Shown here: positions 1 to 45,128 of the stretch, one piece after another
How the letters are laid out: every line of letters begins with the position of its first letter
Position numbering within the stretch: position 1 is the stretch's first letter
Assembly (NCBI GenBank): GCA_006384855.1
Contig: VCJN01001366.1
Location: 1 to 64,000, forward strand
Length of the DNA stretch: 64,000 bases
Reading direction: 5' to 3'
Origin: Tetraselmis striata
Lineage: Eukaryota; Chlorophyta; Chlorodendrophyceae; Chlorodendrales; Chlorodendraceae
Made by a program: the position numbers and the translations under genes
The notes under the pieces: model-generated
What the model was told of the DNA's origin: nothing
The model's database searches: none
The model's input: only the letters and a program-made list of their open reading frames with translations

Positions 1-545
1 GTTTTTGGATAATATCATACATACTAACGCGTAGGTGGCAACGAATCGAAACGGCGGTGCGTACCCTGGCCGTGTTCGATTTGCCACCCTCAGGCGTTTC
101 CTAATTATGTTTACATGTAGTCCATTATTCTCATGTTCTAAATAATATTATGGCTACAGTTTCAATATAAAGAAATGTTTAAACGCAGTACTAAGGATTG
201 TGTGATCTTCACATCATGCATGGCTACGGCGGATAGTACGTATACCGGAAAACCACCTACTGGTATGATTGCTGCGCTACCTAGTGATTACTGGTACCCG
301 TGCGGATATCGGTACTGGTCTGCAAGAATCATTATATTACTCGTAAACAAGGATCTGTCAAAATATCCAATCGCTATTAAATGTGCGGTACGCAACCGAA
401 AGGTGCAGATAACAAACGCTAATCAGTCCATGCTGAATGGGCAATACAAACTAAAAAATGTACTTAGTGCTATTTGAAATCGATTCGCAGATGTATCTGT
501 GTGTTTACTTCCAAGAAAAGGCCAAGTCATCAACCATTTTTTATT
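1..545 (+). repeat. AT-rich dispersed repeat, copy A
   Basis: First of six copies of a repeat. The left end carries a segment like cggtgcctggccgtg followed by tttgccaccc and agcgttt (here near 50-105). The middle is AT-rich with a shared segment around actaaggattatgtg. The right end reads gggcaatacaaa, then a tcgattcgcaa-like box, then a T/C-rich tail. The other copies are near 3064-3700, 7558-8125, 8525-8830 (left part only), 35740-36505 and 37450-38055. No coding capacity or terminal inverted repeat was seen. Confidence 0.7.
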
Positions 546-712
546 CTATTCTATTCTGTTCTATTCTGTTCTGTTCTATTCTATTCTATTCTATTCTATT
601 CTATTCTATTCTATTCTATTCGATTCGATTCGATTCGATTCGATTCGATTCTATTCTATTCTATTCTATTCTAGTCTTGGCTAGTCTTGGCTAGTCTAGT
701 CTAGTGATGCGT
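538..712 (+). repeat. TTCTA/TTCGA pentanucleotide microsatellite
   Basis: Roughly 30 tandem pentamers, mostly ttcta with interspersed ttctg and ttcga variants, ending in a few tagtc/ttggc variants. It begins exactly where the T/C-rich right tail of AT-rich repeat copy A ends, so it may be an expansion of that tail. Open frames through it (poly FYSIL) are artefacts of the repeat. Confidence 0.9.
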
Positions 713-757
713 CCGTGATGATGCGGCCAATCGATTCCGCTAAGAGCTAACATTGCA

Positions 758-3700
758 ATGATGCTGCGGTACGACGGCTGCCAGGCCGGCGCAGTCAACA
801 TGCCAGGGGCTGATGAGGCTGAGGACTCACCCACCCGCCCCGGCGACGACTCTCCTGCTACATGCCTCCGCAGCACCGCCGGGCCCATCCGCATGTTCCT
901 GGATGTCGGCAATGCCGCGCCCTATTTCCATGCCCTTCCACTCACAGGGGCATCCCTCGGGGAGGCGCAGCGCCACTCCTCGCTGAGCTACCGGCTGGAG
1001 CGGCTCAGGCCAGATTACGGCTCCGGCGGGACCAAACCGTAAGCGGCCGCATCCACATGCGGTTTGTGGCACCTTCCCGCCCGCGAAGTACCCCGCGCAA
1101 ACGACATTTAATTTTCTTCATTTTCGAAACATCTCCACTATTGAGCAAAGACGTTTTTCTTCGAGAAACTCGCCACACCGCAAGACGACCCTTGACTACG
1201 TCGTTGGCGTTCGAAGCTTGCCGCTGAGATTTCCCGCCGGACTCCCGCAGAAGCCCGGCCCGCGCGCAAAATGTGGGATGATGCATGTGGGGGGTCTGAA
1301 ACACACAGTATGTGCGCGAATCACTTGCGAAATGTCACTTCCCATTGCTGGTATGATTCGGCTCCATTCCACGCAAAGTTGATGGCATATCCGTCCGTTG
1401 ACCGGGTCAACTATCGAATGTCGTTTCTGCGCCGCCCATGAGCTTCCGACCACATGCCATGGGCACCGGATGCCATCCCCTTGCAACGCCCTGCACCAGC
1501 ATTGCTGTGCGCCATGTTGCCGTTGGAATCGGCTACTTTGTGAAGGAGTAGCGCCAAGGTGTTTCAGAGTCCCACTGCCGCGCGTGTTCTGTGCGCGCCA
1601 TCGCAGGCCCGTGTACCAGCTGCATCACAAGATGGCCGGAGCGAGGGCATGGACCCTGGCCCTCGAGTTTGAGGACGTGCCGCGGCCGCGGGCCTTCTTT
1701 CTGCCTATGATCCGGGTGCGGCATGGGCCGGCGTAGTGTTGCCGTAGTACAGACAGGGGAGGGGGGGGGGGGGGACTTTAGGTTGGGGCAGTTTCAGTAG
1801 TATGGGAGGCCTGCGGTACCTAGGCTCGTCGAACGGAAACGATAGACGATATTTGACCAACCGGTCGTAGGACGGAGAAACCGAACGGTTATAGCGTGGG
1901 ATAAAGTCCAATCTTACGAGAAGCATGCGAAGCAACATTTCGCTAGTTACTCGTGCGCATACCGAATGTTTCGGACCACCCCACATGCACAGCATGCATC
2001 CCCCCACATTGCGTGTGCGCCGAGCTTCTCCGGGAATGCTTGGTGGGCAAGCCTCGTATGCCACCGATGTGGTCAAGGATTGTCTCGAGGTGCTTCGAGT
2101 TTCTCGAAGGAATATGTCGAAGTTTTCGCACCATGCTGGTGGCGGTGATTCGAAAATAAAACGGAAATAATGTCGGTTCCGCACCGGGGAGCGTACCCCG
2201 GGCTGGGATTGCCAGGCGGTGGCTGCCCTAGCAGTCAGTGACTTTGAGCAAGAAGAAACCCCATCGCAATAAAAGACTCAATGTCCTGGTGGATTCGCAG
2301 GAGTCTCGCACGCAACCGGGGCGGCACAACCCCTTCCTGCAGTCCCTCCGCATTTGCGCCTTCCCAGGCGGCGAGAAAGTGGCCATCCGGGGCGCGCAGC
2401 TGGTGCAGGGCGGCAAGCGGGCGTGGATCCCCACGGAGCGTGCGATGACGGCGCTGGTGGCGCGACACTTCCCGCCGGCTTCCTTCCACTCCTCCGCCCG
2501 TCGCTCGGCGCATTGCGCGCGGGCGACTCTCCCCTGTTTCCCGCCGGGCCGGCCGGGCGCGGTATTTGCGCTCATCGCCACGTGCGGCCGGCTCGGCCTG
2601 TTGCTTGGGCGCAGCCTGCCCTCGGCGCTGAAGCAGACGCAGCCGCCGCGGCACGTGGTGGTGGTGATGGACTGCGACGTCGGACGGGAGGAGCTGGAGC
2701 AGCGTCTCGCCTCTGCGGGTCTGGTGAAGCGGGACCCCGCTGACGGCACATGGACCTGGCAGCTCGGGCGTGTCCCGGGCGGCGCCGGGAGCAAACGGGA
2801 CGACCACGTAGTGCCCGTATCGTTTGTCAACAATTCGCGCACCATGCGCAGCGCCAGCGGGGCGTGGAACGCGGGGCTGCACGTCATCCGAGGCCTCACC
2901 ACAGAGGCTGAAGGTGCATGGGTCGCCATCCTGGACGACGACGACTCCTGGGAGGATTGCCACCTGGAAGCATGCGCGGACGCACTGCAGCAACACGGCT
3001 CCCGTTGCGGCAGCGCTGAGGTAGGAGTCGTTATAGCGGGAGATGGGGCCCTAAAACCCAAAAACGTGGCAACCAATTTTCAACTGCGGTGCCTGGCCGT
3101 GATTTGCCACCCTTCTAGCGTTTTTCTATTTTATCCTGCTGCATTCTGGTATTATTCTGCTGTCTACTAATTGTCATTTGCGAAAGTTACATCGTAATAT
3201 ACTGTATAAACGCGCTAATAATAAGGCTGACGTAATCCTTCATGTCCAGTACACTTGATAGCACACGCGGCGTTTGTAATTCTAACCCGTACACAACGCA
3301 CTGTCACTGGAATCCTTCCCCGTACCCGTATTCATAAACATATTTTATGCGTGAAGTCAAACCGCAGACTAAGGATCACGTGACGCGGACGATTACCTAT
3401 CAAAATCGCAGTCGTAGTCGTTAACTGTAATGACTGGAATTGTCTTATGATCGCTGCGCATCGGTGGGCCTTCCTCTATGGCTGTCTAATTTCAAACAAT
3501 GCACGTATACTTTCCTGAATAAATGGGCAAGATTACAAAGTCAAACATTGTCCTAATAAGTGTTTCCGAAATCAACTCGCAATGCGACTGAGGAAGATCT
3601 GTCAGTACATTTCTTTCAAGTACCAAATTATCAAAGCATTTTCTATTTTATTTTACTTTCTAATCTATTTCTAATTGGCCAACCTCCAACCTAATATACT

Positions 3701-6700
3701 GCTTGGTTTGTTATTATATCTTGGTTTAGGGTCTATGAACCTCAAACATAGACCCTGTCAAACTCTTTAACAAACCCAAACCCCTTTTTTATGTTTCCGC
3801 ATGTTTGTGCAGCGACTCGCCTCAAAAGAATAACAGTGTGCTTGCGCTGGCAGCACGCGCGAGTCACGCATGTGCACATGGTGGTCTGCGGGCTCCGCCG
3901 CCTCGACGGCGAAGGCGGAGAGGAGCTGCAGCCAAGCCCCGCCGCGCTGGACGATTTGCGCAGCGGCGCGGTGTCCCTGTCCGCCGCCGACTTCCTGGTG
4001 GGCAACCCCGGCGTGCAGGGGAGCAACATGTACGTGCGCTTGGATGCCCTCATGGCCGCCGGCTGCTTTGATGAGGCGCTCCGGGCGGGGACGGACCGCG
4101 ACCTCCTCATCCGCCTCCTGGACCTGCCTTGGTTCACCATCGCCTACGGCTCCTCCCACACTGTGCGGCACTACGCGGAGGCGGGGCGGCCGCGCTTGTC
4201 ATCGCCAGGTTGGGGCGTCGCAGGGCACACGTCATGCCGTGTGACGTCCACCATGCCATAATGCCGTCAACAATGACCCCCACAGCGCCCATCGATCCCT
4301 AAATGTTTCCGCTATGAACCGCACACTATAATAAATGCAATGCGCAGCATATATTCATTATTTATCTTATTTAGTATTTATGTATACTATCTATTTACTC
4401 TGGCTAGCTTCTTGTGCTCAAAGGGCCCACCTGAAGGGGTGTGCGCGATAAACATTATGCCCTTGTGGCACCTACCAACACGGCAACGTGGGGGTTGCCT
4501 ACATGCCCGTATTGGCCTAGCAATCAGTGCTGTTTATTCGCGGAGCGCGTCAGTGCTGATTGTTTGTCGTGTCGCTCTGGTCGCCTAACTACGTGACTCC
4601 GTTTAGCCGCTCAGGTGTCGTGCGCATGTCGCACCGCTGCTCGGGGGTGATCAGCCGCACGTACACCGCCAAGTGATCTCTGATGCCCGGCCTGTGGTAC
4701 CTAGCTTACGGTACGGAAACAGCATTCGATACTTGAACCGGTAAACGGACGGATACAGCGCAAAGTTAGCGCGCAATTAAGTCGACATATACAAGCCGCA
4801 TGCGAAGCGGCATTTCGCGAGTGATTTGTGTGCGTACCCCACCTCTCGGACCGCCCCACATTCATCACCCCACATTAGCGTGCAGGGGTTGGGCTCCTCC
4901 GGGACTACTCCTCGCCTCGCATGCCACCGACGTAGGTGGTCAAGGGTCGTCTTGAGGTGCTGCGAGTTTTCCTAACGGGAATGATGACATTGTCGTACGA
5001 TGGTGGCGATGTTTCGAAAATAATCGCGCCGAAAATAATGTCGTTTGCGGGGAGGACTGCGTGCGCGGGAAGGTGCAACAGGCCGCCCGGCAGCAGCAGC
5101 ATCAGCAGCAGCAGCCCCACCCCGCCTGGCAATGCGGCAATCAGTGTAACCCACCTCCCCTCGGCGGCGGCTGTGGTTGCAGGGGTCGCCAAGCACGACG
5201 CGCTCCACGCCTTTTGGCGGAAGTACTCCCCCAGGATGTCGGCGGAGCAGCAGAGGCGACACGTGCAGCGCTGCGGCGCCCTGTTTGGCTGGACACCGCC
5301 GGCGGAGGGCAGCGGCAGCGGCAGCAGCGGCAGCCAGGCGCACCAGGCTGCCGCGCCGCACAGTGGCGGCTCCCGCGCACCGCTTAGACTGGCGTCCAGC
5401 CCGGAGCCGTGTGCCGTGCTCGTCGGCGCCATTGCGACGGGCAGCCCTGCCACGCTGCTTCAGTCCCTCTGTCGGCTGCAGGAGGCGGAGGAGGTGGAGT
5501 ACATGGACGTGCTCCTGCTTGACAACGGAGGAGGCGGCGGTGGGGCGGCGGGGGCGGCGGTGGGGAATGGGCTCCGGTGCGTGGTCATCTCCGAGGCGCA
5601 GGTGAGGGCAGACGCGCGCGCGGGGCTGTTCGGCGCCGCGGTGGGGGCGGCCGCCATCCTCGCACCGCCGCGGCCGACGGCCGTGAACCGCACCATCCTG
5701 CAGCTATACCTGTACCACCACGCCAAGCTGCAGGGGCTGGAGAAGCATGACCGGTGAGTGCGGCACTGCAGACCGCGGTTATTACCCACAGGGGCACGGC
5801 AAGGCGTTATTCCCTGAAACACCGATATCGCACTTTCCTCGTACACGCCCCAAAGCGTCTTTAGTACTTAGTCCATTACATCGCGCACTATATCACATTT
5901 GAGTGCAAAAACAACACTTCGCGGCGGCAGACCTCTTAGGCATCCCCGAAGTAGGGCGGGAGTTAAAGGGGGCATTTGTGTCGGGTAAGATCGGCCCGGG
6001 AACCCCCTCCGGTTTCCTTTTGAGTATTGATACATCGCAAATAGTATGTTACGCAGTACATCTGCTGGGAATCGAAACCGGAAGACCGTCGAACACCGGG
6101 CGACAGTTCTGAAAACGGTATTCCATAGAACTGATCACCGGCTTTAGAGGTCCATCGTGCCGCTTTACTGTTTTCGATGTAATTCGGTGTAGTGCGTACA
6201 TTGGTATATTATTGAGTACTGTCATATAAACATGACTCATACGGTTTTGGCCGGCCGGGAACGTCGCCACGGTTGCCGACGCAGGAAGAAGAACACTTCT
6301 GTGAATAAGAACATATGCCCTGCGCTGCGAGAGGTCAACTGCAGACGAAACCGCAGCGGTGTATTATAGCAAATTTTCTTATGTGTTGCATTCAGCAAGT
6401 TCACTCTGAAGCTTTCGCAAGGAACGTTTGCTTCGCCGAAGAATGCCGGGTCAGGTTAGAAGTTTTGAAAACCAAGAATTTGCAGGCACACCAGCCCGCG
6501 AGAGGGGGGAGGGGGGCTGGGGTGCGCTTGATGGAGCGTGCCACAGCAAAGGAGAGTGGGCCGGGCGTCCGCCGTGAAGGCAGGTGGTCATCGCCGCCCG
6601 GCCCCGCGTAAACATAGGCCGCGCAGGAGTACACATTATGGCGGCACCCGGCCGGGTCAGCTCTTGAAATAAACGGGTAGAAACCCCAATTATAAAGTAG

Positions 6701-9700
6701 TTTAGAACATTAGACTATCGATTCCTAGTTCTTGTTATAAGGTGCATCGGCCCATGTAGTGCGCCGGTGCGCGCTGACTACTAGGACGCTGTTGATATGC
6801 CGGTGGCGGCGGCAGGTGGATGGTGTGGATCCTGGATGAGGACAAGGACACCACCTCCGCGGTGGTGGACGGCGGCAACGGGTGGCTGGAGGAGCGCGCG
6901 ACGGAGAACATCCTCACGGCGGCGCACCTTGTCCACGAGCGAAGCGGCGCAGACATTGTGCTGGGGCGAGACACCGGGGCGGCCCCGCTGCCGGCGCTGT
7001 GCACCCTGCGCACCCAGCTTGTCGACCTGCTCGCGAACCTGCACATGCTGGCGCGGCTGTCCCCGCGCGACGCCGTGCCGTGTCGGAGTCGCGACAATGC
7101 CGAGGCCGCGCGGCGCCATGCGGACGACTTTTACCACGACCTCGCGTGCTGCGGGCTGTTGGAGTCGCCGTTCTGGATGCAGCCCGAGCGCGCGGACGGC
7201 GGCGAGGCAGCGGCGCAGATGTTTGACAGAATCGCGCACGGCTGCGACGCCATGCTGGGCGGGCGGCAGCTCTTCCGGCCGTTGTTTGCGACGGAGCCCA
7301 AGGACATTAATGACATCCTCCGCGCCACGGCCCCGTCTGTGCGCCGGGGAGGCAACACCTTTGTCTTTGCCCTGGACGCGCTGCTGGTTCCCAACATGCT
7401 GGCGCCCCACCGGACTACGTGCTGCCGGAGGTCCGACTTCATTTGGTGCATGCTCAACGTGCGCCGGGGCAGGTAATGCTTTATCAACAAAACTCCAAGC
7501 CGTAGCTGTAGTGCCAACGGCATGTTCTCCACATCATTATTGCTGGTAGCGCTTAGGTGATGGCAAATAGTTTTAAACGACAGGGCCTGGCAGTCTCTAA
7601 TTTGCCACCCTTCTAGCGTTTTACTAATTCTATTATATTCCGTGGTTGTTTTTTTAATTATTATTGTTGTAATAATTTCATCTGAGTAGATCATTTAGAC
7701 GCAATACTAAGGATTATGTGGTTATTCAAAATGTCTGCAATGCTTGATTACAAGCACGTGCACACGCGTTATATACGTGTTGATTTTACCCGGTACCGGC
7801 ACGGCAAGGTTTATGCCCGTGGTACTAGTAAGGGTTACGACAATATGATAATATGGATATTACCTGCACCTAAGAACGCGTAGTAGTATTGCTACCGTAT
7901 CCCAATCGCTACTGTGCATCGGTATGCATTCATGCATCGCTATATATAGTTTCAAATAATGCACGTATACATGGGCAATACAAACTGAAACCGTGTTCTT
8001 AGTGCTTTCCGAAATCAACTCGCAATATGACTAATATGTAGCTTTTCGATCTCTTTCAAGAACTTCAAATTATCAACACATTTTCTATTTTTATTCTATT
8101 TCTAATTCCCGAACCTCCATCCTGATACCCTTACACTGGTGAGTCGGGAGTGCTGCATTATAAGCTCTTATGATGTTCGCCCGAAGCCATCGCCCTCTGA
8201 CCGCAGCACGTGCGCTATGCCACCGGATCATCAGGAAGGTGGTCGCCTCCCCCCACCTGGCCGTCCAGCATGTGCGCAACGCCCCGGGGGACCTCAGCGC
8301 GGAGTGGGCGCGCCTGCAGGGCGACGTCGCGGGGTTTGCCACCTACTGTGCGTTGGACGCCACCGTTGGCGGCACGCCGGGCCGGCGCTGGGAGGACGGC
8401 GACGATGCCACGCTTGAGGGGGCCTTTGCCCAGAGGTGCGCCTGCTAGCGCACCGCCCACAGTGCCCATAATGCTGCTGGTGGTTGGCACAGCAGTAGGT
8501 TATTCAATACATGGTACTAGCGCGTCAGGCGGCAAGTAAGTTATACACGGCGGTGCCTGGCCGTGTTAAAATTTCCACCCTTCCGGCGTTTTTTCAATTT
8601 GTATTCTATTCCGGTATTCCGTATTCTTTTATTCCTACTATTGCTGAAGTTCCATCGCAGTAGACTGCGTATACGCGGCACTAAGGATTATGTGGTGGTT
8701 CGTGTCTACACATATTATGCGATGGTTCATGTGCACAGTTGATATTGATTTATACACTATCTACAATTCTTACTAGTATATGTGTGTTGCTTGTTTACAC
8801 GTTAATTTATACCGTACACCGGAACTAGTACCGGCACCAGACTACGACCAGTACGCTGGTCGGATGCCCACTGCCCTACTTATTAGACATGCCGCATTGC
8901 ACCAGGGCGGCGCTACATGGGCAGGTATTTCCCACTTGTCTCAAAATACAGGTGCCGGCAGCCTAGGTCCGAGTGGTGCGCCATCACATTCAAGAAACGG
9001 GCCCGAAAGCGTCGTTGTTCCGCCACGCGTAGTATGGCCCAGTGACAGCATGTCCACGTCGGCAATCCTGCTACTAATTGCGAAAAAGAACTACGGGTGT
9101 CAGCACACCTGCACGAAGCCTGATAGCATGAGCCTCAATTTGGGCTTGAATTCAATCTATGAGAACAATTGCTACAATTCCGTCTGCGTTTACCATTCAC
9201 ACAGGCACGGCATACTCTTATTTGCCGTGTCCGGTGGAACCTAGCTCACGGCGCAGAAACGACATTCGATATTTGACCCGGTCAACGGACGGATATACCG
9301 TAGACTTTGCGCGGAATTGTGTCGAATCGTACCAGCAAAATTGGGAAGTGACATTTCGCGAGCGATTCGTGCATGTACCGCATGTTTCGGAGCACCCCAC
9401 AATGTGCGCGCGGTAGGCTCCCCCGAGAATGGTCTGCCACAGCGGTTCCAGGGGGGCACAGGCAATCCTAAAGGCCGTGTAGTAGGCGTGAGCACAATCC
9501 AACATGAATCAAACTTCCGGGGGGGGGGGGGGGGGGGGTAAATAGTGGATTAAGACTCGAACGAGGAGTATACCACATGCCTCGTTGTCTGTCCGCTCGG
9601 TAGAGCGGTGGTCTCCCACTCAGGAGGTCCTGGATCGATTCCCGGCTCTGTCAGCTCAGGGCAATGTCGACCGGGCCCGTGTTCCGGGTTCCGGTTGATG

Positions 9701-12700
9701 CATTAGCACTTCGGGGTTCGAATGAGGCAACGGTCTAAGGGCTATGCCAGACCTACGACTGCAGTTGGCGCACGAGGTCAATCACTGGGGCGGCTTGGGC
9801 CGGGAACCCGGGGCGAACTTTACTTTTATTTTTACCACGTGATCTATCCACATGATTGTGACGAGTGCCGTTGTATGTTACGCTGCAGCGCTGACAATAT
9901 CATGTTATCCGCGACACACCGTGGCATCGATGGATATATATATATATATATGATACCATTGTCCGTGGCTACGAGTGCTTTGCCATGGGCGCGTGAGACG
10001 CGCCGCGTGTACGAGACTGTACGGGCCCTAACCACGTTACCGCAAGAAGATGTGCGGCGCGCACGCGCAGCGTATGGGCACGCCCATGAGATCTTCGAGT
10101 TACTTACGGTCAGTAATGCTACGACCACCGCTGCATCGGATCCAGCAGCTGGTACTACGACCCGTACGGGTACGAGCACTAGCGGAGGATTGCGCGTCAC
10201 CACATCTCCTTTTACGGCCACTCCTCTTGGAGTTGGTACTGGTGAGGCCGCCTCTGCTGCCCAGCAATTGCTTCCTATCGGTGGTACGAGTACTGCCAAT
10301 ACCGTTACTACATGCGCTTTTGTAGCTCTGAAGATACCGTCGCCGGGCGAATTAGTGGCACCCCCTCCGTCAGCAGCCACTGTTTCCCTCCCAGAATCGC
10401 TGCCAGGTTCCACTGCTCCGCCCTCGGGTACGGGTTCGGGTGCGACCTCCGATGATCAACCCACGACCATGGTTGTCCAACGCCACCTCAGCCGTGCGAT
10501 TCGCTTGCGTGACTTCGTGGCCCTCGATCTCAGCTTCCAACGTACTGGTGCAGCGGCCTCGCGACTTGATACCCTGCGCCTGTACAGCGCGTGCGGGCCG
10601 GGCTCCCTATCGCTTTTCCAGTCGGATCACGAGTCCGCCCGCAAGATTCCCCATGCTGCTTATGCGGCCGCCGCTGCGCGGGTACTGGGCCTTTGCCCGC
10701 GCGGAGGTTCCGCGCTTGTCACTTGCCCTGGCCCAACGTGTGGTATTGATCCCTTATGGCTTCGCTCTACGGATGGCTCGAACCGGAGCGCTACGGATTT
10801 CATCGTGGATCATCTACCCATATGCCCCGTAGCGAACTACAAGCACCGCATGCATACCGCTTTGAAGAATCTGTGGGCATCTGTGGCAATTGATGCGGGG
10901 GCGGTGCTTGACCGGGACCGCTCGGGAGCCGGCGACTTGACCCTTGAGACGAGTGGGCTGCGCCCAACGGACCGCTCGCGGCCGTCGGACCTGACGCTGG
11001 CGGGGTGGGGAGGGGCAGCGTGCGATTACATGATCGACTTCGCGTGCGTGTCCTCCACGACCCCCACTTGGAGCAACGACCCCCGCTGGTGCATCCCGGG
11101 AATCGCGGCGACCGAGGCGGAGCATGCTAAGTTGGCAGCGGACCGGGCGTCTTCCGCCCCAGTGCAGGGTGTTCACCGGTACTACCCTTTTGTGGTTGAG
11201 GACCGCGGCCGACTCGGGAAGTCCGCTTTGACTGTGGTCTACATCTTTGCGGTGCTGTTGGCTGTGCGCAACTTCCCTGGCGGTCCTTCCGCCCCGACCT
11301 CTTGCTTTCTTCGTGGTCAATCCGTTCAGGCACTTCGAAACTTTGTCGCCGGCCAACCTGCTGAGTTCCGCCGTCACCTGTCGCGCACACGGCGGGGGCT
11401 GTTGCAGCGGGTCTCGGCTTGCGTGCATGGTACCCTGGGCGGCATCCTCTCTGCCGGTGTGCAGATGGCCAAGTCTGATGCGTGTGCTCGTGCCCACTCT
11501 GCGTCTTCTCATGTTACTGCTTCCACCCCGCAGTCGCTGTAGAGGACCTTTCTGATTGCCTTTTATTTTGGTGATTTCCGATATCGCCTTCTGCTGATAC
11601 CATTGTATACATCGTCTGGTATAATCGCTTTGCTCACGGTGACCAGACACCTCTAAGTATTGCAGCACTGTCGCCGCGACAAAGTGCGACAAACCGTCGT
11701 GATCGGCGGGCAAGCCTCGTATGCCACCGACGTGGTGAACCATCGCCGCGAGGTGCGGCGAGTTTAGCGGAGGAAAACGATGAGATCTTTGCACAATGCT
11801 GGCGATGTTACGAAATGAAACGGAGATGTCGTTTGCGCGCCCGTTCCCATGCCCGGGGGCATACCATGACAGGCTCGCAGTATCGATCACCGTGTTGGCG
11901 CCGGCTGGGAAGAGTAGTTGTTATTGGTAGGTAATTACTGAAGCTGAGATTGACAGCCGTTGTGCCGCGCCAAGGTTCCGCGAGGCGTTCGAGGCGCGCG
12001 CGGTGCGGTTCGACTTCTCGCTGCATCGCATCCTGGGTTGCCTGGCGGCCGCACTCAACCTGCTGGAGGCGCCCAACACCTGGTGGGCTGACTCAGAGGC
12101 GCAGCGCCGGCTGTGCGCCGACCTGAGGCGCTGCCAGGAGGCACTCTCGGCCTACGCGCGCCACCCGCCGTGTCGCACAGCGCTCGCCACGCCGCCCCCC
12201 TGGCCATCTTCCGCGCGTTCCGGGAGCAGTCCCTATGCGCTCCGGCTGGTGCGGCCCGTGTCCCGGCAGCTGTGCCGGAAAGCTCCCGGGAGTTTCTCGG
12301 CAGCGTGAGGGTCGACCTGGCGCGTTGCACGCTGCGCTGGCTGACGGGCCGCGGCGGGCCAGACCAAGCGTGCGAGCTCCTGGGTTGCGGCAGCGAAGGT
12401 GTCGTGTTCCGGCTGCCATCGCCCCTGTCTTCACGGGCCGCGGTGGGAAAGGTGATGGACCGCTTCCTTCTGCGGCAGGGCAGGCGCCACGTCCCCGTCC
12501 TCTGGGAGCTGCAGGCCCAGCGGGCGTCCTTCGCGAGCGTCTGTCCGCTGCGGCGCATATGTCGCGGCCGTGGAAGCACGGTGCTCGTCGCGGATTTCCA
12601 GCCGGGCGAGGTGCCGGCGCGTGGACTGGCGCCCTCGCTGGCCGTCGTGGCTGCAGCTGCTCCGCGAGTGCCGGGAGCGCAGGGTGGTGCTGACCAACTT

Positions 12701-15700
12701 CAGGCCCACCAACCTCGTGCTCCACCCCGGGGGCGGGAAGCTTGTGCACGTGGACCTTGGCCTGGACGTGGTCCGCTACAACCACCCCGAGTGGCTGGCG
12801 ATGGCGCGGCAGCTGTACTGCATGCTGTTCTGGGGCGGCAGGCCGGACCTGCCGGCGCTCATGGCCGCCGCGCGGGCGCACCCCGACCCTGGCGGCCCGG
12901 AGCTTGCGGGGCTGCCGGGCTTCATGGGGGCCTTGGAGCGCGAGTTGGAACCCCAGGGGAACGGCTCGCAAGGTCCCATCGGCAGCCCGGAAGTGTACCT
13001 TGCAGGTGAGCGCAGCTCTTGGCCCATGGTCGACGTGTTGAATTGGCGTTATTGGAAATTTGGTATAACTTATCCCTGCCAGTCTTCCGACGACACCGGC
13101 CAGCGGTCTTACGGCTGCATGAACCCGCACAGGGCCGGCTGTAGCTCGTAGCACGCAGCCCTCTGAAGGCCAGTTGAGCCGGCGGTATCAACGCCACAGA
13201 CCTGATGTCTGCGCATCCGGCCCCCGCAAAGATGACGCCGCGCCCCATACAGAGGAAGCAAATAGCTCGGACCCGGGAGGGGTGGTGCGGGAGAGCGTGG
13301 AGAGCCCCTTCCTGGAGGAGCCGCCGGCGCTCCGGGCCCTGCTGCGCTCTCTCCACGCGCGCGGCGTCGCGCTGCTGGACGCCCACGAGGGCCCCGCCTG
13401 GCCGGTGTGCAGCGCCATGCTCGGGCTGACGTGCCACCGGCTGGACCTCACGCTCCGCCACACCTCGCCCGCCGTCGCGTCGGCCGGGCGGGACGTGGCG
13501 CTGGTCATTCGGTCGTGCGCCCGAGAGCACGCGACCATCTACCAGACGGCCAGGCACCTGTGCGAGCAGCTGGAAGGGCCACACGTCTTCGGCCGGCGGG
13601 CGCTGCTGTGTGACAGCCCGCCGCCGAGTGCGCTCTGCGACGCGGACGCGGAGAAGCAGTGGCGGCGCCAGGCGGAGCGCTTGCGGGCGGAGGGCGTCAT
13701 CACGCAGGTGTTTTACGCGAGCAGTGCGCCCGCCGCCGTCCGGGAGCACAACGTCCGCTGGATGGGGCTCGACTCGGAGCAGACACACAGCGCCGGGAGG
13801 TCCGCGCCGCTGTCGTCCATGTTCCAGGCGCTGCAGGCCGTGGAGGGCCGGCACAGCTACTGCGTGCTGCTGGACTCGGACATGCTGGTGGCGCGCCTGG
13901 GGCGCCCGCGCGACCGGTACCTGGCGGACATGAAGGGGATGCTGCAGCGGGACGCCGCCCTGCTTGCGGTGGCGCTACCCACTAGGGAGGCTGTGTGCCG
14001 GGGGCCAGTGCCGTGCGGCAAGCTGGAAGTGCGCGGAGCCCTCATTGACCTGCGGCGCCTGACGGCGGCGCTGCCGCTGCCTGTTGGTGGGGCCTCCGAC
14101 GACGGCGCCCCGCATCTTTGCGGTGGCGTTGTCCAGGCATGCGCCTGCCTTTCTCAACGCGGCGCCGGCGGGATGTCGGGCAATGCGCGAGGAGGTTTGG
14201 CGCTGAGGCTGGCCGGGGCCTGACGTGTGTGCCGCTGACCCTCACCGCCGCAGGTGGGTTGGAACCGCCTCCTGGACGAGGGCGCAAGGAGGCGGAGGCA
14301 AACCTTCGCTCGCTGCGGGAGCCCAACCACGTTTGCCATGCACCCAGACTACCTCCTCAAGAGACGCACAGCAGACCACATGCTGCTGCTGGACGGCGTG
14401 GAGCACGGCCGCATGCCCAGTGCCTCCGCGCAGCGGCAGCTGCTCTCAGAGCTGGAGGGCGTGCGCAAGTTCAGCCTCCCCGAGCGCTGCCTCCCGCTCT
14501 TCCTGCCGGCTGCGCGCTGCGAGCCAGTGGTGGTGTACGCCTACGGCCGCTCCGCCGACAGCCCGGCCGCCGCAAGGCGCTTCCTCCACCAGCTGAGGCA
14601 GCAGGAAGGGGTGGAGTGGAGCTGTGTGCTCGTGGTGGACGGGCCGGGGAGCGGCGAGTGCGGAGAGTACGTCGACGTGGCGTGCGGCCAGGATGCCCGC
14701 TTCACTGTGGTCCGCCTTCGGACGGTATTGAGCAAGGCCGCTGCCATGGGCCTCGTCGCCACCCAGCTGATCCAGCCCCGCAACGCCGTCGTGGTGCCCA
14801 TGGACCTGCGGGAAGCCCTCATCGGCAGCGGCGTGCTGCACGCCATCTACCGCTCGTACCAGGGGGCTGCGGTGGCGGACGCGACGGTCGGCCGGTCCCT
14901 CCTCGCCTGCCCTCACGACTACCAAGACGCGCGGCTCCCATCTGCCAGTCCGATCCAGAGCTTCCGCCGGGAGCTCCTCCTCCGCCTGTTCGCACTGCAG
15001 GAGGACGGTCAGCGCAGCTGGCAGGCACGGGCCAAGCGCCGAGCCATTTTGCCCGCATCGACAAGTCTCCTGACCGGCTACCGGCTGATGCCGCCGATGC
15101 GCCTGCATGCATGCTGGGCCCAGTCACGAGGGGCTGCTACACGATCCCACTATCTCGCTCTTTCCCGGTGATTGGCACGCGTACTGACCGATTTGCGCCG
15201 TCCGCCTACCGCAGAAGGAGGCGGACCCTGAGGCCTCTTACCTGCATTGCCTGGAGGCCATCCGCGCCACGGCAGCCACGGTTGCCTCTGTGCCGGACGC
15301 TGCCGTCCTGGTGGACTGCCCTGCAGCATGCGCGGCGCTCCTTCGGGCCGCCGGCGAGGGGGGCGCCCCCACGGCTGGACGAGGCCATCCGACAGTCCTC
15401 CAAGCAGCGCCTGCGGGTCGCGGTCGTGGGCAGCGCCAACCTGCTCCGCGTCCCCGCCGAGCACCGCGCGGCGGTCGCAGCCTTTGCGGAGGAGCTTGGG
15501 CGGCTGCTGGCGGAGAGCGGCTTCCTGGTGGTGACGGGTGGGATGGGCGGAGTGATGGAGGCGGCCTGCCGGGGCGCAAGGCGAGCTTCCGGAGCAGGCG
15601 GCCTGGTCACGCTCGGGCTCCTGCCCTGGGCGAGCAGCGCTGGCGCCAACAACTTTGTGGACGTGCCGCTGCCGACCGGCCTGCAGGAGGCGCGCAACAA

Positions 15701-15977
15701 CCTGGTGGCACTGGCGGATGCCGTCGTGGGCGTTGCCGGGGGCGGCGGCACCCTAAGTGAGATGGCGTACGCTTGGAGTTCCCGCCGGCTACTGATTGCG
15801 GCGCGAGGGCCCGGCACTGCTGGCAAGCTGGCTGACACTAGCCTAGACAATCGCCGGGATGGTGTCATCCATGGGGTCGACCTGGACAGGCCTCAGGACG
15901 CCGCCGCCATCATCTTCAGGGAGCGCCACTCTCTGTATGGGCGCCAGCAGGCGCCGGGCGGCATCCAGGCGGCGTAA
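758..15977 (+). CDS. Giant modular glycosyltransferase / kinase-like / SLOG protein (about ten exons)
   Basis: Proposed exons: 758-1038, 2249-3020, 3854-4208, 5183-5753, 6816-7472, 8235-8435, 11975-13005, 13253 to about 14082, 14254 to about 15110, 15215-15977. The first seven junctions agree in phase, which is why I treat this as one gene of about 2,100 codons. Modules in order: a GT2-type GT-A fold (LDDDDSW near 2930-2950); a second GT-A-like fold (MVWILDEDK near 6820); a kinase-like fold (12.36-12.90 kb); a third GT-A-like fold (YCVLLDSDMLV near 13860); a fourth, weaker one (14.5-15.0 kb); and a C-terminal SLOG/LOG-like Rossmann module. The first exon and the ends of exons 8 and 9 are the least certain. 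At least three frame changes are needed, two of them clearly at G/C runs, so assembly indels or early decay are possible. Substrate unknown; a role in building a cell-surface or storage glycan is inference. Confidence 0.7.
1078..1450 (-). mobile_element. MITE, copy 1 (inverted orientation)
   Basis: About 340 bp bounded by inverted termini: gcgcaaacgacatt near 1095 and aatgtcgtttctgcgcc near 1417-1433. The internal sequence is shared with copies 2-4, including catgccaccgacgtggtcaagg-like and gtgacatttcgcgagtga-like blocks. It has no coding capacity and lies in the first proposed intron of the giant gene. Confidence 0.75.
1757..1774 (+). repeat. Poly-G homopolymer tract
   Basis: A G run interrupted by one A, in the first intron of the giant gene. 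Tracts of this kind recur throughout the window. Confidence 0.9.
1815..2190 (+). mobile_element. MITE, copy 2
   Basis: Same family as the copy at 1078-1450 but in opposite orientation. The left terminus is ggtaccta... cggaaacga and the right is aataatgtcggttccgcacc. A poly-G tract (1757-1774) lies just upstream. It sits immediately before the acceptor proposed for the second exon of the giant gene. Confidence 0.75.
2249..4208 (+). CDS. Module 1 of the giant gene: GT2-type glycosyltransferase
   Basis: Exons 2249-3020 and 3854-4208, joined in phase 0. The N-terminal strand FALIATCGRLGLLLGRSLPS and the following HVVVVMDCD have the GT2 pattern of a Rossmann strand ending in Asp. NNSRTMRSASGAWNAGLHV resembles the conserved Arg/Gly/Asn stretch before the metal site, and LDDDDSW is the DXD-type metal-binding motif. 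The second exon carries the acceptor half (GNPGVQGSNMYVRLDALMAAG, then GTDRDLLIRLL, then IAYGSSHTVRHYAEAG), like the C-terminal part of bacterial GT2 enzymes. Expected activity is sugar transfer from a nucleotide sugar by inversion; donor and acceptor cannot be read. The intron between the exons holds AT-rich repeat copy B. Confidence 0.75.
3064..3700 (+). repeat. AT-rich dispersed repeat, copy B
   Basis: Full-length relative of copy A inside the intron 3021-3853 of the giant gene. The left box cggtgcctggccgtgatttg is at about 3085 and the right box tgaataaatgggcaa at about 3515. The element is shorter than the intron. Confidence 0.8.
4690..5055 (+). mobile_element. MITE, copy 3
   Basis: Starts with ggtacctagcttacgg and ends near aatgtcgtttgcgggg, same orientation as copy 2. 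It lies wholly in the intron 4209-5182 of the giant gene, just ahead of the exon start. Confidence 0.8.
5183..8435 (+). CDS. Module 2 of the giant gene: second GT-A-like glycosyltransferase domain
   Basis: Exons 5183-5753, 6816-7472 and 8235-8435. Splice phases (1, 2, 2, 2) match on both sides. The start AVLVGAIATGSPATLLQSL and the strand VEYMDVLLLDNGG resemble a nucleotide-sugar binding half. RTILQLYLYHHAKLQ followed by MVWILDEDK places an acidic D-E-D cluster where GT-A enzymes hold the metal. The rest (FYHDLACCG, then FVFALDALLVPNMLAP) is helical and not recognised. Identity as a glycosyltransferase rests on pattern and on being flanked by clearer GT modules. Confidence 0.55.
5754..6815 (+). 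other. Intron without recognised element
   Basis: About 1.06 kb between two well-supported exons. I see mixed-composition sequence and no repeat family shared with the rest of the window. Short open frames here have no family resemblance. Confidence 0.6.
7558..8125 (+). repeat. AT-rich dispersed repeat, copy C
   Basis: Lies inside the 762-bp intron 7473-8234, whose borders are fixed by phase (exon ...AG, then G...). The left box is gggcctggcagtctctaatt and the right box gaaatcaactcgcaatatga. The element fills about three quarters of the intron. Confidence 0.8.
8525..8830 (+). repeat. AT-rich dispersed repeat, copy D (left part)
   Basis: Left box cggcggtgcctggccgtg near 8540 and the shared middle actaaggattatgtgg near 8680. 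The right end typical of other copies was not found. It lies in the 3.5-kb intron 8436-11974. Confidence 0.65.
9070..9200 (-). repeat. Short dispersed repeat R4, inverted copy
   Basis: The reverse complement contains caattgttctcatag and caaattgaggctcatg-like blocks. These match segments near 28600-28690 and 48060-48130. Function unknown. Confidence 0.5.
9520..9538 (+). repeat. Poly-G tract
   Basis: About 19 consecutive G inside the nested insertion. Confidence 0.9.
9583..9655 (+). other. tRNA-like sequence (probable SINE/tRNA relic)
   Basis: gctcggtagagc resembles a D arm and ggatcgattccc a B-box/T loop. The would-be acceptor stems do not pair and the anticodon loop lacks U33. It is therefore better read as a tRNA-derived promoter relic than as a functional tRNA. 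Confidence 0.4.
9722..11542 (+). CDS. Long ORF of the nested element; C-terminal retroelement-type domain
   Basis: The first part is low-complexity Thr/Ala/Pro-rich. The second half has TSGLRPTDRSRPSDLTLAGW, a hydrophobic YMIDFACVS strand, AATEAEHAKLAAD and YYPFVVEDRGRLGKSAL. That order resembles the nuclease-like tail found after reverse transcriptase in many algal retroelement proteins (a D at the strand, then a conserved Pro-Phe-Val-Val-Glu stretch, then helices). A Cys/His-containing segment precedes it. The identification comes from memory of the pattern. The opposite-strand frame over the same region is judged a shadow. Confidence 0.5.
   Translation: MRQRSKGYARPTTAVGARGQSLGRLGPGTRGELYFYFYHVIYPHDCDECRCMLRCSADNIMLSATHRGIDGYIYIYMIPLSVATSALPWARETRRVYETVRALTTLPQEDVRRARAAYGHAHEIFELLTVSNATTTAASDPAAGTTTRTGTSTSGGLRVTTSPFTATPLGVGTGEAASAAQQLLPIGGTSTANTVTTCAFVALKIPSPGELVAPPPSAATVSLPESLPGSTAPPSGTGSGATSDDQPTTMVVQRHLSRAIRLRDFVALDLSFQRTGAAASRLDTLRLYSACGPGSLSLFQSDHESARKIPHAAYAAAAARVLGLCPRGGSALVTCPGPTCGIDPLWLRSTDGSNRSATDFIVDHLPICPVANYKHRMHTALKNLWASVAIDAGAVLDRDRSGAGDLTLETSGLRPTDRSRPSDLTLAGWGGAACDYMIDFACVSSTTPTWSNDPRWCIPGIAATEAEHAKLAADRASSAPVQGVHRYYPFVVEDRGRLGKSALTVVYIFAVLLAVRNFPGGPSAPTSCFLRGQSVQALRNFVAGQPAEFRRHLSRTRRGLLQRVSACVHGTLGGILSAGVQMAKSDACARAHSASSHVTASTPQSL
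12300..13005 (+). CDS. Module 3 of the giant gene: protein-kinase-like fold, probably atypical
   Basis: Part of exon 11975-13005. LLGCGSEGVVFRLPS looks like a glycine-rich loop. VGKVMDRF supplies a candidate ATP-binding Lys and VLWELQAQRA a candidate helix-C Glu. LTNFRPTNLVLHPGGGKL aligns with a catalytic loop plus the following strand, and VHVDLGLD with the metal-binding DFG position. The residue matching the catalytic Asp of HRD appears to be Asn, so it may be a pseudokinase or a small-molecule kinase-like fold. Two reading-frame changes occur in this exon, one at the C run near 12190 and one between about 12600 and 12625. The helical stretch before it (11975-12170) is unassigned. Confidence 0.5.
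13253..15110 (+). CDS. Modules 4-5 of the giant gene: two more GT-A-like domains
   Basis: Exon 13253 onward joins the kinase-like exon in phase 1. VALVIRSCAREHATIYQTAR opens a GT-like fold, and SYCVLLDSDMLVARLG supplies a D-S-D metal motif preceded by a hydrophobic strand. The next exon (14254 on, VGWNRLLDEGARRRR) resembles the end of GT2 enzymes, where VGWD-type motifs sit. A further repeat of the fold then follows: EPVVVYAYGRSA, then WSCVLVVDGPGSG, then NAVVVPMDLREALIGSGVL. This last copy lacks a clean DXD and may be inactive. The 3' end of the exon changes frame near 15030-15060, so its border with the SLOG exon is unclear. Confidence 0.5.
15215..15977 (+). CDS. Module 6 of the giant gene: SLOG / LOG-like (TIGR00725-type) Rossmann domain
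   Basis: After the acceptor at 15214 the frame opens with KEADPEASYLHCLEAIRATA. The core is VAVVGSANLLRV, then GFLVVTGGMGGVMEAACRGA, then NNLVALADAVVGVAGGGGT and LSEMAYAW. The GGMGGVM and GGGGTLSE signatures are typical of the LOG/lysine-decarboxylase-like SLOG family, which includes nucleotide-binding proteins and cytokinin-activating phosphoribohydrolases. Catalytic activity cannot be assumed, because SLOG domains also serve as nucleotide-ligand sensors. A frame change is needed at the G/C run near 15358-15372 between the leader and the core. The stop is at 15977. Confidence 0.75.
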
Positions 15978-16865
15978 AGAGCGCTCCGCCACGCCGAACT
16001 CCCGCATGGCAACAGCGCTACATAATGCAATCGGCACATTTACCAAACTGTGAAAAAGGCTCAGCTTGAGATAGTACTACTATTAGCGCTGATGAGCGGC
16101 TGTTGCTCTATCCCTGGCTAGGAGGACCAGAACCAAAACAGCGTCGTTAGTAGCCCCCATCACGCTTGACGACCCTAGCAGCAGCACGCACCCTAGGTAG
16201 ACACACTGTCCCTGCTTCGTTGCCAAGTAATATCCCTGAGCCAGTCTTCCTACTACTTTTTTCCGTCCCCGGGACAGGACTGGCACCAGTGAAACCCTTA
16301 CAGCGTCTCTACGACGGCCGTTTGGGCAGCGATCCAGATACGGAAAGCCCTGGGTGGGCAACGCTCCGTTATATAGTCAAGAAGCAAATCGCCTGAGCAT
16401 TCTGCAAGACTAATTGGAGGCTAGTGACGGAATTTCCAACCCTGTTGGATCACCGTCTAAAACACTGCCATCAAAATGCCCGGCACTGGCCACGAAAGGT
16501 CTGCCTTACCATTGCATGCATGGGCAGTGACTCTCCGGAGGACTTTGTGGCCCTCTGCTATGCTGCATTGCTGCTAGCGGATATCACGCTGCTGCTTTAG
16601 CCTATCCGGTTTCTTGGCCAGCGACAAAGGGCGGACATACCACTATTACGTGCGGGGAGAGCAGGCACTGCATGACCGGCAGGAGGCACAGCCCCGCGAG
16701 AGACCACCACCACCACTGGCGGGATAGACAACCAGAAGGCGGAGCCATGCCCCGCCAGCATGGACACCATTCCATGGTTGGCGCTATACACAAACAAAAT
16801 CTGGCACCATCACAAATGTTGTTCCGAGCAAGGACGTTGACATGATGGCGCCGCGCGGGGAAAGT
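15978..16865. other. Intergenic region between convergent genes
   Basis: Lies between the stop of the giant plus-strand gene and the stop of the minus-strand SEX4 gene. The only recognised content is the SINE-like repeat copy near 16257-16512. No RNA gene was seen. Confidence 0.7.
16257..16512 (+). repeat. SINE-like 250-bp dispersed repeat, copy 1
   Basis: Begins at a T/C-rich start and the block cccgggacaggactggcacc, and runs through gtctctacgacggccgttt, ggaaagccctgggtgggc and ttggatcaccgtctaaaaca to cacgaaaggtc. Near-identical copies lie at 44580-44836 and, shorter, 50975-51172. No A or B box was certain. Confidence 0.85.
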
Positions 16866-19571
16866 TTACAGCCCAAGGCTCGACCTAATGGCGGCGGCCT
16901 CGTCGGACGACAGGTGGGGGTCGGCGCTCATCAGCCGCTCGCGGTCCCGGCGCTGCTGCTCGTCCGCATTGCTCGGCACCTGCCAGCCATCCAGGCACAT
17001 CCTCATACATCGGGCGGGGGAGCCGTGATAGACAGGGCAGGGATGCATGCCATGATGGTGACCGACTTGACAGCTTCATTGGCTGGCGGCGCACAACGAT
17101 GTGCAGACGTCTAATGTAAAGTGCTTGAATAGGTTCCCACCCGTGCTCAAACTCGACGCGTAAGCGGGACCAAAAAGCAGTGAGAGCGACATTGCCTATG
17201 TGGGTTTGGGTTTAGGGTTTTAGGTTTTAGGTTTTTATGGGTTTAGGGTTTGAAACCCGAAAACCCCAAACCCTAAAAACCCAACCCTAAACCCTAAAAT
17301 CCTAAAGCACGCCTGGCAAGAGGGGAAGGGGGGGGGGGGGGACATGCGGGAAGGCTGCCACTCACCATGACATAGTTGTTGGTGTGTTCGCCGTCGAAGA
17401 AGGTGGGATGGTCCGCTGGACACAGAGCGCCGTGCAATGTCAGAGCACTCTGTGGGAAAGGTGAGAGCTCATGCTATGGTAACTCGGCCATCACTACCAA
17501 CAGATGTGATGATGTTCTTGTTTGGGGGAGGGGAGGGGGGGGTAATATGGGCAGGCCGCACCCGAGTAGCCCCAAACGCCGTCGCAGATGAACTTGTACG
17601 GGTACTTGCCGGGCAGCAGCTCCCGCTCCAGCACAAAGCAGCGCCGCGCTGCGTCAAACTCCAGATCCAGCATCTCGCCCCAGCCGACATCCAGCCCGGA
17701 CACCTGCAGAGGTGCGATAGTGCCAGGCCCGGCGAGGCGCGAGGGAGGGTGGCAATGTCACCATGCTGTCACCTGGTGTCTCCACCTGCACGGGAACCCC
17801 CAAACACCACCACCTCACAGCTTTCGTTGTCCAATCTATGCTTCCGAGAGCATCAAAACGCCAATGCCCGTATCGTGGCCGTATGTATGTTGCACCGTAA
17901 CCTTGCTTTGGGATTGCTAAATAATACTATTTTCGACCCCTCACGAAAAAGGAAAACGACATTCATCTGAAAATCCACAGGTACCGACGCCCTTAACAAG
18001 TCTGAGAATGGGCTTGCATGCTGTTACGGCAATCGCTGTGGTTCCGCGTTGGTTTCGTCAACATTTGAGCTCTGCCAGGAAGGGGGGTTCTCATGTTCGC
18101 AGTGCTCCTGGGACTGCCACCGGTTTTAGAGTAGTTCACCACGGATACAGCACGGAATCCCCGCGTCGATGGTGCGTCACAGTTTATGGCGTTGACGACC
18201 CGTGAGCCCAATTGCATGTCTGCGCACGGGGCGGCGGCATTGCTGGGGCGCTCCGCTCGCACCTGGATGCGGCTGGTGGTGCCCCAGCGGTACACGCACA
18301 GCGCGACCGGCTGGCGGCTGCCCTGGAACAGGAGGTCGCAGGTGGCCTCCTTGATGGCCTCCAGCTTGGGGTGGCACGGCCGCACCTCCATCAGCATCGC
18401 GTGCGCCTCCATCAGGCGCAGCCCGCGCGTCCAGTACATGTACGCCAGGGCGGTGCCCGGCGCGCGGCCCAGGCCGGCGGTGCAGTGGATGTACGCCGGC
18501 CTGCCGGGGCCCGCCGCGGCATGCGCGGCCGCGAGCGCGGCAACTCCGTCCGGCAGGTTGAGGCGCAGGCTGAACGGGTCGAAGTCGGCCACGGGGCAGC
18601 GCACATGTGTGACGTCGCCGCGCTCCTCGCAGCGCGCCTAGGCAAGCAATGAAGGACAGGGGGCAGTTAATTCCCTGGGGGAGACTGAGAGCGCCCGCAG
18701 CGCCGTGCCCTCTGATTTGCTCTGCCCGGTGGCGTGCGCTGCACCTTGATGTCCGAGATGGCAAAGCCAAAGTACTCTGCGTCCTTGTCCTCCTGCAGGC
18801 AGAAGATGACCCCGACGTTCTCCTCCTCAACCAGCCTGCCGAAAGTGCCGCCGAAAAAGGTGGGGGGGGGGGGGGGGGGGGATATCAAACAAGTGGAATG
18901 GGCAGATGCGATGGCAGATGCAGGGTGAACAGTACAGCTCGCCACTACGTGTCTGTCTGATTGGCCAGCAAGGATTAGGGGTATTGAAATTTGTCTGATG
19001 GTGGTACGAACGTACTGCAACGTAAGCGTGCTGAAATCCCACATTGGAGCAGGCGAGCAGCAAGGGTGCGTGTGCAAATGCCGCCCCACCAACAGGCCGG
19101 TGAAGGGCCTGGCTGTATTCCAGAAGCGCGAAAAGGGCTACGAGGACGTTGCAACAGTCCTTGGAGTGAAAGGAATTGGCACCGAGTGGGCAGCCTGCGC
19201 GATGGGCGACGGGCGCAGCGCCCGGCACACCTGTCCACGTCGGCGGCCGACTGCGGGCACGACCCAACGATCACGTCCGGCAACACGTACGCCCAGTTAA
19301 TTCCATCCTCGTGCCGGTACTGCAAGCTGCCGCCCATACGCTTCTGCATCGCGTCGCTGTAGGCGTCCGACTTGGCCTCCTCCTCCTCGACTTCCGCCGC
19401 CGCCGCGAGTGCCTCCTCCGCCCCCTCTGCCGCCGCCGCCGCGCGCTGTCGCCTGCATCGACGCGGTGCCGCAAAGCGCGCCGGTGGCGGACAACGGCCG
19501 CGAGAGCCAGCCGCAGCGAGCGCCCCCAAGGGAGAGCGCACCGCCCTCGTTGTCGCCCTCGTGAGCGCCAT
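16866..19571 (-). CDS. SEX4: Phosphoglucan phosphatase, SEX4/DSP4 type
   Basis: Exons (minus): 19571-19231, 18835-18745, 18637-18263, 17703-17562, 17415-17366, 16979-16866. All phases agree and give 370 aa, close to plant SEX4. Residues 1 to about 70 are Ala/Arg-rich, like a plastid transit peptide. The dual-specificity phosphatase domain follows (YRHEDGINWAYVLPDVIVGS), with general acid near Asp162-164 and the active site HCTAGLGRAP (Cys about 196, Arg about 202). The carbohydrate-binding module (CBM48) starts at VSGLDVGWGE and includes YPYKFICDGVW and HTNNYVM. The C-terminal helix RERLMSADPHL matches the plant protein. Known role of the family: removal of phosphate from glucan chains on starch granules so that amylases can act. 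Start chosen at the Met giving the best transit peptide; an upstream in-frame start exists. Confidence 0.93.
17203..17310. repeat. Interstitial telomere-like TTTAGGG sequence, palindromic
   Basis: Degenerate gggtttagggtttt units on one side switch at about 17253 to ccctaaaaacccaaccc units on the other, forming an inverted pair. It lies in the last intron of the SEX4 gene. The motif matches the TTTAGGG telomere repeat of plants and many green algae. Confidence 0.8.
17328..17341 (+). repeat. Poly-G tract
   Basis: On the coding (minus) strand this is a C run starting about 25 nt after the donor of exon 17415-17366. Confidence 0.85.
18861..18880 (+). repeat. Poly-G tract
   Basis: On the minus strand it is a C run about 25 nt before the acceptor of SEX4 exon 18835-18745. 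Confidence 0.9.
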
Positions 19572-44836: not shown

Positions 44837-45128
44837 GTTTGGGCGTCGGCCCATTCGAGTAATTAACGTTACTGTGCCCTTACTGGTGTGTTGAATATCG
44901 CCGCCCGATGCCTGCCTCATGTGCTCCGCGCGTCGGCGGACGAGCCGAGGGTTGCTTCCATCATTTCGTGGGTGCTGATACTGCGGAATTCTCACGAATT
45001 CTGATGGATTATATCATCATTTCTAGACGGGGGGCAGGAACTCAGGATAGCTCCCGCTGAAATCACGCGACCATAACGCATTATACAGGAAAAAAGAAAG
45101 AGGATCCAAAAGGGAAACGGAAATGATG

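Follow-up and report, generated by a model that had tools for sequence, protein, structure and literature searches.

Several described systems come close to parts of the locus reported here. An AsnB-type amidotransferase makes a uronamide sugar in Porphyromonas, according to PMC7468200. NADAR proteins are N-glycosidases with a suggested role in early riboflavin synthesis, and they remove ADP-ribose from guanosine, as PMC11125620 describes them. For the phosphoribohydrolase CgLOG, Arg99 and Glu122 are the proposed catalytic pair (PMC4979012), and eustigmatophyte plastids hold a bacteria-derived six-gene metabolite cluster (PMC5133447). Here we describe a gene at the start of contig C1098 (VCJN01001366.1) of the green alga Tetraselmis striata (GCA_006384855.1; 224 Mb in 2903 contigs), of which the first 64,000 nucleotides, the window, were analysed. 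Our best gene model runs AsnS-NAT-GT1-GT2-K-GT3-GT4-SLOG, where AsnS is an asparagine-synthase-like module, NAT a NAT-like module, GT1 to GT4 candidate glycosyltransferases and K a kinase-like module. It is probably a nuclear algal gene derived from a bacterial biosynthetic operon through horizontal transfer, fusion of the encoded proteins and gain of introns.

Seven window exons, all on the plus strand, join into one frame of 964 amino acids through six phase-consistent junctions (758(785)-1038, 1607-1715, 2301-3020, 3854-4208, 5183-5753, 6816-7472, and 8235-8435). A seventh junction, from 8435 to 11957 or 11975 across a 3.5-kb intron, agrees in phase 2, bearing out the seven consistent junctions claimed by an earlier sequence-only reading. 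Exon 1, from 785 (acceptor 783-784), encodes the middle of the NAT-like module with its catalytic-Asp motif FLDVG, and exon 2 continues this module. Exon 3 carries the NAT-like end and the first half of GT1 (profile 2562-3038) in one open exon, and the NAT of bacterial locus L036 matches this region (window 2208-2486, E 7.5e-6). Exon 4 holds the second part of GT1 (motifs NPGVQGSN and TDRD), while exon 5 joins its end (5185-5298) to the start of GT2 (5380-5730), again in one open exon. The GT2 core (WILDEDKD) and GT2 end follow in exons 6 and 7; profiles and splice phase agree for both.

Beyond intron 7 (8436-11956), K and the stretch before it occupy 11957-13005, followed by the GT3 exon (13253-14082; its acceptor one of seven in-phase candidates) and the GT4 exon (14254-15000; end approximate). 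K, GT3, and GT4 can be joined in phase or nearly so: an in-phase splice is possible from K to GT3, and another from GT3 to GT4 via a weak donor. The stretch at 15001-15368 would link GT4 to the SLOG module, which closes with a stop codon (15369-15977). Profiles place the modules in the order GT1 (2562-5298), GT2 (5380-8376), K (12266-12956), GT3 (13459-14085), GT4 (14272-14985), and SLOG (15393-15935), as the sequence-only reading had proposed. The placement profiles contain the alga's own modules, and their E-values are not independent. Independent support came from plain blastp of the algal modules against bacterial proteins (best E: GT1 3e-50, GT2 8e-42, K 4e-17, GT3 7e-23, GT4 7e-16, SLOG 1e-41) and from tblastn with bacterial chains, which was co-linear with the window modules.

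Position 758, where the sequence-only reading had begun the gene, is probably not its start. The end of a second contig, C1967, overlaps window positions 1-5466, and the two are about 96 percent identical except for a 0.4-kb insert. On the same strand, upstream of the overlap, C1967 carries AsnS and the first half of the NAT-like module, placing the beginning of the gene outside the window. Splice phase is kept across the first four AsnS exons, a single open exon runs from the end of AsnS into the start of NAT, and the NAT exon end on C1967 and window exon 1 are both phase 0. Three module pairs (AsnS-NAT, NAT-GT1, and GT1-GT2) are fused inside exons. These data support a single large gene of several modules that reaches at least from AsnS to GT2. 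An alternative genetic code was considered for a TAG codon in AsnS and rejected: the seven window exons are stop-free and use CAG for Gln. Upstream of the gene and head to head with it, at C1967:13419-14936, exons resembling the bacterial M20 cluster form a divergent M20-peptidase-like gene. Beside the AsnS synthetase exon, a second, frame-shifted stretch (C1967:9100-8964, L108) appears by eye to match the corresponding region of asparagine synthase, which would fit a duplicated fragment.

The profiles assigned none of the modules to unrelated families, an outcome that the sequence-only reading had named as one that would overturn it. GT1 matches Glycos_transf_2 just under the cut-off (E 1.2e-4), its bacterial relative P0001 lies above it (1.3e-15), and the alga keeps the DDDD acidic metal-binding motif of family GT2-type (GT-A) enzymes. 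The algal GT4 segment reached 0.035 at best in the library scan. A bacterial-only GT4 profile matches solved glycosyltransferases (TagF, 3.6e-8). Alignment to GT1 by hhalign gave 96 percent for GT4, 36 percent for GT2, and 9.5 percent for GT3, and the library scan of the GT3 segment returned no match. Of the four GT-A folds originally proposed, profiles uphold GT1 and GT4; for GT2 and GT3 the fold is tentative, suggested by acidic motifs and weak profile similarity. The DxDD motif of GT4, invariant in 13 bacterial rows, reads D-x-R-E in the alga, and we do not file this module as an active enzyme; its role is probably structural.

The library scan of the algal K segment gave no match, and a bacterial-only profile matches solved kinases (6e-6). 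The protein-kinase-like superfamily is marked by a glycine-rich loop, a Lys, a catalytic-loop Asn, and a DFG-type Asp. The alga's joined pieces retain the Lys, catalytic-loop Asn, and DFG-type Asp, and K is a predicted member of this superfamily. The catalytic Asp is replaced by Asn in the alga and in 15 of 15 aligned close bacterial relatives; some remoter rows keep it. The earlier label "kinase-like" is sound as to fold, but the residue pattern is not that of an active HxD kinase.

The SLOG assignment was confirmed. The module matches Pfam LDcluster4 (PF18306) with E 8e-31 and 107 bits, against a cut-off of 26.3, and 22 of 24 family-conserved columns are kept. LDcluster4/TIGR00725 is its best library match, with a score below the TIGR00725 cut-off. 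Its motif AGGGGTLSE corresponds to the LOG motif PGGxGTxxE with Pro changed to Ala. The conserved Arg is kept and stands 22 residues from the Glu, matching the CgLOG pair. By these residues the module has a predicted LOG phosphoribohydrolase activity. AsnS retains its N-terminal MCGILAVVA, with Cys after Met, and the SGGLDSS loop, as in its family. The NAT triad is split between contigs, with Cys (GGPC) and His (HCH) on C1967 and Asp in window exon 1; all 10 of the bacterial rows compared keep the triad. L036 matches Pfam NAT at 4e-17, and the alga matches the NAT profile weakly (best 0.015). No methyltransferase was found by profile search of the window and C1967:1-60000.

Despite its long branch in the tree described below, the alga retains residues invariant in the bacterial family, but unevenly (GT1 33/38, GT2 29/29, K 10/12, GT3 6/8, and GT4 13/25). 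In a leave-one-out control, the algal shares for GT1, GT2, and K were no lower than those seen among bacterial rows. This uneven retention argues for past selection on most modules.

The same architecture recurs in bacteria. Scanning prokaryotic genomes with GT1 yielded 148 relatives, of which 80 were taken in; locus counts cover these together with two plasmid loci and four from viral contigs (L022, L023, and L104-L107). A GT2 or GT3 profile was found in 62 of these loci and a GT2 profile in 47. Seventeen of the 62 prokaryotic and viral loci encode GT1-GT2-K-MTase-GT3-GT4 on one chain, where MTase is a methyltransferase. Two of the chains lie on contigs labelled viral, and L079/L105 and L031/L104 are near-duplicates. 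SLOG is present in the locus for 15 of the 17 (the L031 contig ends there; L043 shows none), as a separate open frame in 12 and fused C-terminally in three (L078, L079, and L105). Sixteen loci combine AsnS with RibA-NADAR, whereas L061 alone combines it with SLOG and carries M20 and NAT as well; L026 has AsnS and NAT fused. Loci L147-L151 stand outside these counts, L147 being a further chain with SLOG. On a Pseudoalteromonas plasmid, tblastn picked out a GT1-K-GT2 protein whose gene neighbours encode RibA-NADAR, an asparagine synthase, and a NAT.

Neighbours of the bacterial loci include genes for polysaccharide deacetylase, sulfotransferase, and epimerase/GDP-mannose-dehydratase-like and UDP-glucose-dehydrogenase-like enzymes. 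In Planctomycetota, the phylum of L048, GT3 was found in 7 of 392 sampled genomes, three of them already among the collected relatives, so the system is patchy. A viral-contig scan added four relatives, viral-contig scans overall gave few, and neither a plasmid search with GT4 nor a phage search with P0001 gave a match. The bacterial family looks like an uncharacterised pathway, patchily distributed and carried partly on plasmids and a prophage-like contig. That contig, L105, bears integrase, antirepressor, replication, and DNA-methyltransferase-like genes along with the whole chain, SLOG fused and a UDP-glucose-dehydrogenase-like gene following, and is nearly identical to the Bacilli chromosome locus L079. 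Further viral-labelled contigs with the system or its GT2/GT3 modules are L104 (the same contig as L154) and L152/L153; L104, close to the Phycisphaerae locus L031, may be bacterial DNA. No account of this gene combination was found in the published literature, searched largely without subscription journals. The component families are known; the pathway and its fused algal form appear to be new.

A 45-row GT1+GT2 tree (the alga with prokaryotic and viral sequences, midpoint root only) groups the alga with 19 rows (99/99), including 14 of the 17 chains, from Planctomycetota, Myxococcota, Pseudomonadota, and others. The alga sits on a long branch (1.98), with an exact neighbour that is uncertain (85/70). 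Introns interrupt the locus, many contigs share its mobile element, and the assembly contains green-lineage light-harvesting (chlorophyll a/b) genes; these are signs of a nuclear location. The element lies in intron 7 as an open frame (9707-11542) with at least 80 other near-identical genomic copies scored, at 96-100 percent identity, several within frames of about 1450 residues. A Pfam scan of this frame gave no match. The insertion is a very recent, high-copy mobile element. The tree grouping, introns, and shared element together support transfer from a bacterium to the alga and long residence there, a direction we infer. Bacterial contamination was considered and rejected, given the introns and the element common to many contigs.

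SLOG and RibA-NADAR appear to substitute for one another in the bacterial loci. Among the 47 sampled loci with GT2, SLOG is present in 26, RibA-NADAR in 16, both in none, and neither in five (L031, L033, L043, L049, and L068). We rejected the view that this zero overlap reflects many independent events. The 16 NADAR loci and L033 form one tree group (84/96), so a single replacement suffices and a hypergeometric p value for the overlap would mislead. The pattern is probably the trace of a single exchange involving two families that are both known to cleave N-ribosyl bonds. The swap gives a concrete biochemical prediction for the large and mostly untested family LDcluster4/TIGR00725.

From homology, the likely product is an amidated or acylated oligosaccharide-type metabolite. 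GT1 to GT3 would transfer sugars from nucleotide-sugar donors onto a soluble acceptor. AsnS would convert a carboxyl group, such as that of a uronic acid, to an amide with glutamine, and NAT would transfer an acyl group through its Cys-His-Asp triad. Because its catalytic Asp is Asn, K may bind nucleotide as a regulator or scaffold. SLOG would cut the N-ribosyl bond of a nucleoside monophosphate, so that a base or ribose 5-phosphate becomes available to the product, and RibA-NADAR would perform the same N-ribosyl-cleaving step in the other lineage. The sugar-assembly role first proposed remains the most sensible reading, with the correction that bacterial chains share this architecture and that the alga clusters with these bacteria. 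We offer a bolder version as speculation: a whole bacterial natural-product pathway was taken up by a green alga and joined into one nuclear gene of eight modules, the glycan equivalent of a megasynthase. Its bacterial relatives would then represent an undescribed pathway in which either a LOG-type phosphoribohydrolase or a RibA-NADAR pair can provide a nucleotide-derived building block for an amidated oligosaccharide. If expressed as one chain, the algal gene would be an unusual instance of several bacterial pathway genes turned into one eukaryotic protein.

Several observations, given in this paragraph and the next, weigh against a transferred and fused gene that is still maintained. In AsnS, an in-frame TAG lies between MCGILAVVA and SGGLDSS, and the adjoining M20 gene has overlapping frames with an apparent frame change. 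Within K, a frame change is possible near 12190 and probable near 12640. C1967 differs from the window exons by four indels (2, 1, 8, and 1 bases), none a multiple of three. Exon differences between the contigs are almost equally frequent at the three codon positions (5, 4, and 5), with 5 synonymous and 9 non-synonymous among the changed codons of 583, and do not look like protein-level constraint. Retention in the leave-one-out control was below the bacterial minimum for GT3 (0.75 vs 0.80) and far below it for GT4 (0.52 vs 0.83). Such a locus could be a recently decaying pseudogene, a transferred cluster that was long functional and is now broken in this strain; we regard this as possible, if on the doubtful side. 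Its case is helped by the HSP70 control, in which 54 of 58 stretches lacked a stop and four copies had an open frame for 594 or more of 599 positions. Yet breaks occur elsewhere in the assembly, with a stop in 4 of 58 HSP70 and 9 of 63 light-harvesting stretches (54 of 63 were stop-free), although these controls show stops, not frame changes. C2315 resembles a broken HSP70 copy, and the present locus is itself situated at contig ends. Exons diverge less than introns between the contigs (15/1738 vs 89/2925, p 3e-7), and family-invariant residues are retained on either side of the K breaks. The change near 12190 would also fit a 68-98-base intron with weak sites; a 46-base intron at 12640 would cost about 11 residues. 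An apparent shift near 15365 is needed only if the pre-SLOG stretch codes in its other frame. A search of the assembly found no second copy of 11940-15980, so there is no other haplotype with which to compare the K frame changes. The breaks may be assembly error at contig ends or may equally be recent decay.

The extent of the maintained gene raises a separate question. SLOG could be its own gene, starting at the in-frame ATG at 15111 in the GT4-SLOG stretch, and AsnS to GT4 one protein, an arrangement of two or more neighbouring genes that the bacterial loci, where SLOG is mostly a separate frame, would favour. We think this rather unlikely for the locus as a whole, given the three module pairs in shared open exons, the 20 in-phase candidate splices from GT4 to SLOG (best donor 15167), and the three bacterial chains with SLOG fused. 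For SLOG itself, a place on the same polypeptide and a separate start at 15111 are equally possible. The single large gene of the sequence-only reading thus stands from AsnS to GT2 and, joinably, from K to GT4; K is interrupted in the assembly, and SLOG may or may not belong to the chain. No locus examined contained all eight modules, and bacterial-only profiles of GT2 and GT3 found no convincing solved-structure match in PDB. The tree set the alga beside prokaryotic and viral rows, and the transfer may have passed through another eukaryote. SLOG domains occur in conflict systems, and a conflict or defence system on mobile elements, in which SLOG or NADAR would target nucleotide signals, would fit the plasmid loci and the prophage-like contig. 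NADAR domains act as antitoxins (PMC11125620). We nevertheless consider a defence role distinctly improbable. PADLOC returned no whole-system match, only single domains: mad2 (2e-10, methyltransferase), PDC-M42C (2e-12, NADAR), and, more weakly, PD-T4-6 (2e-4, K) and PsyrA (3e-4, SLOG). Recurring partners are sugar, amide, and acyl enzymes, with nuclease-like neighbours in single loci only (L023 and L105). The chance that unrelated eukaryotic genes merely fell into this order is negligible and the idea is refuted, since the same order occurs on single bacterial chains and fusions lie inside open exons.

Other features of the window were recorded alongside the gene. The K-GT3 intron region includes a stretch of about 125 bases (13051-13173) with at least 40 dispersed genomic relatives at 70-84 percent identity, possibly a short interspersed or intron-borne repeat; it had no Rfam match at gathering scores. 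A short TTTAGGG-like telomeric repeat stretch lies inside the contig at 17202-17291, and frames at 17990-19400 on the minus strand resemble what we take to be a dual-specificity glucan phosphatase gene, presumably an ordinary algal neighbour. A 235-base unit is repeated five times in tandem at 25774-26925, its consensus opening with a long G run. At gathering scores Rfam matched the window only once, at a tRNA-Ala (CGC) on the minus strand (45128-45201).

Comparison with known systems places the algal gene closest to the bacterial chains. The eustigmatophyte cluster is likewise a bacterial biosynthetic cluster gained by an alga, but it is plastid-borne with six genes. WbpS/AsnB (PGN_1234) of Porphyromonas gingivalis, an asparagine-synthase-like enzyme beside sugar genes, is a precedent for sugar-acid amidation, although no Wbp pathway genes were recognised here. 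LOG cytokinin-type phosphoribohydrolases share the fold family, motif, and Arg/Glu pair with the algal SLOG, which differs in being embedded in a multi-enzyme locus and in its best library match. The nearest gene set is that of Thalassolituus marinus L061 (SLOG-K, M20, AsnS, NAT, and GT1-GT2), but its genes are separate, it lacks GT3 and GT4, and it is distant in the GT1-GT2 tree. The GT1-GT2-K-MTase-GT3-GT4 chain with its SLOG partner has the same module order and five homologous modules. Relative to it, the alga lacks the methyltransferase found between K and GT3 in 17 of 17 chains and any C-terminal deacetylase or histidine-phosphatase module, and has added AsnS, NAT, and introns alongside a degenerate GT4. 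We therefore file the algal gene as a putative derived variant of the bacterial SLOG-type multi-glycosyltransferase system, not as a full member.

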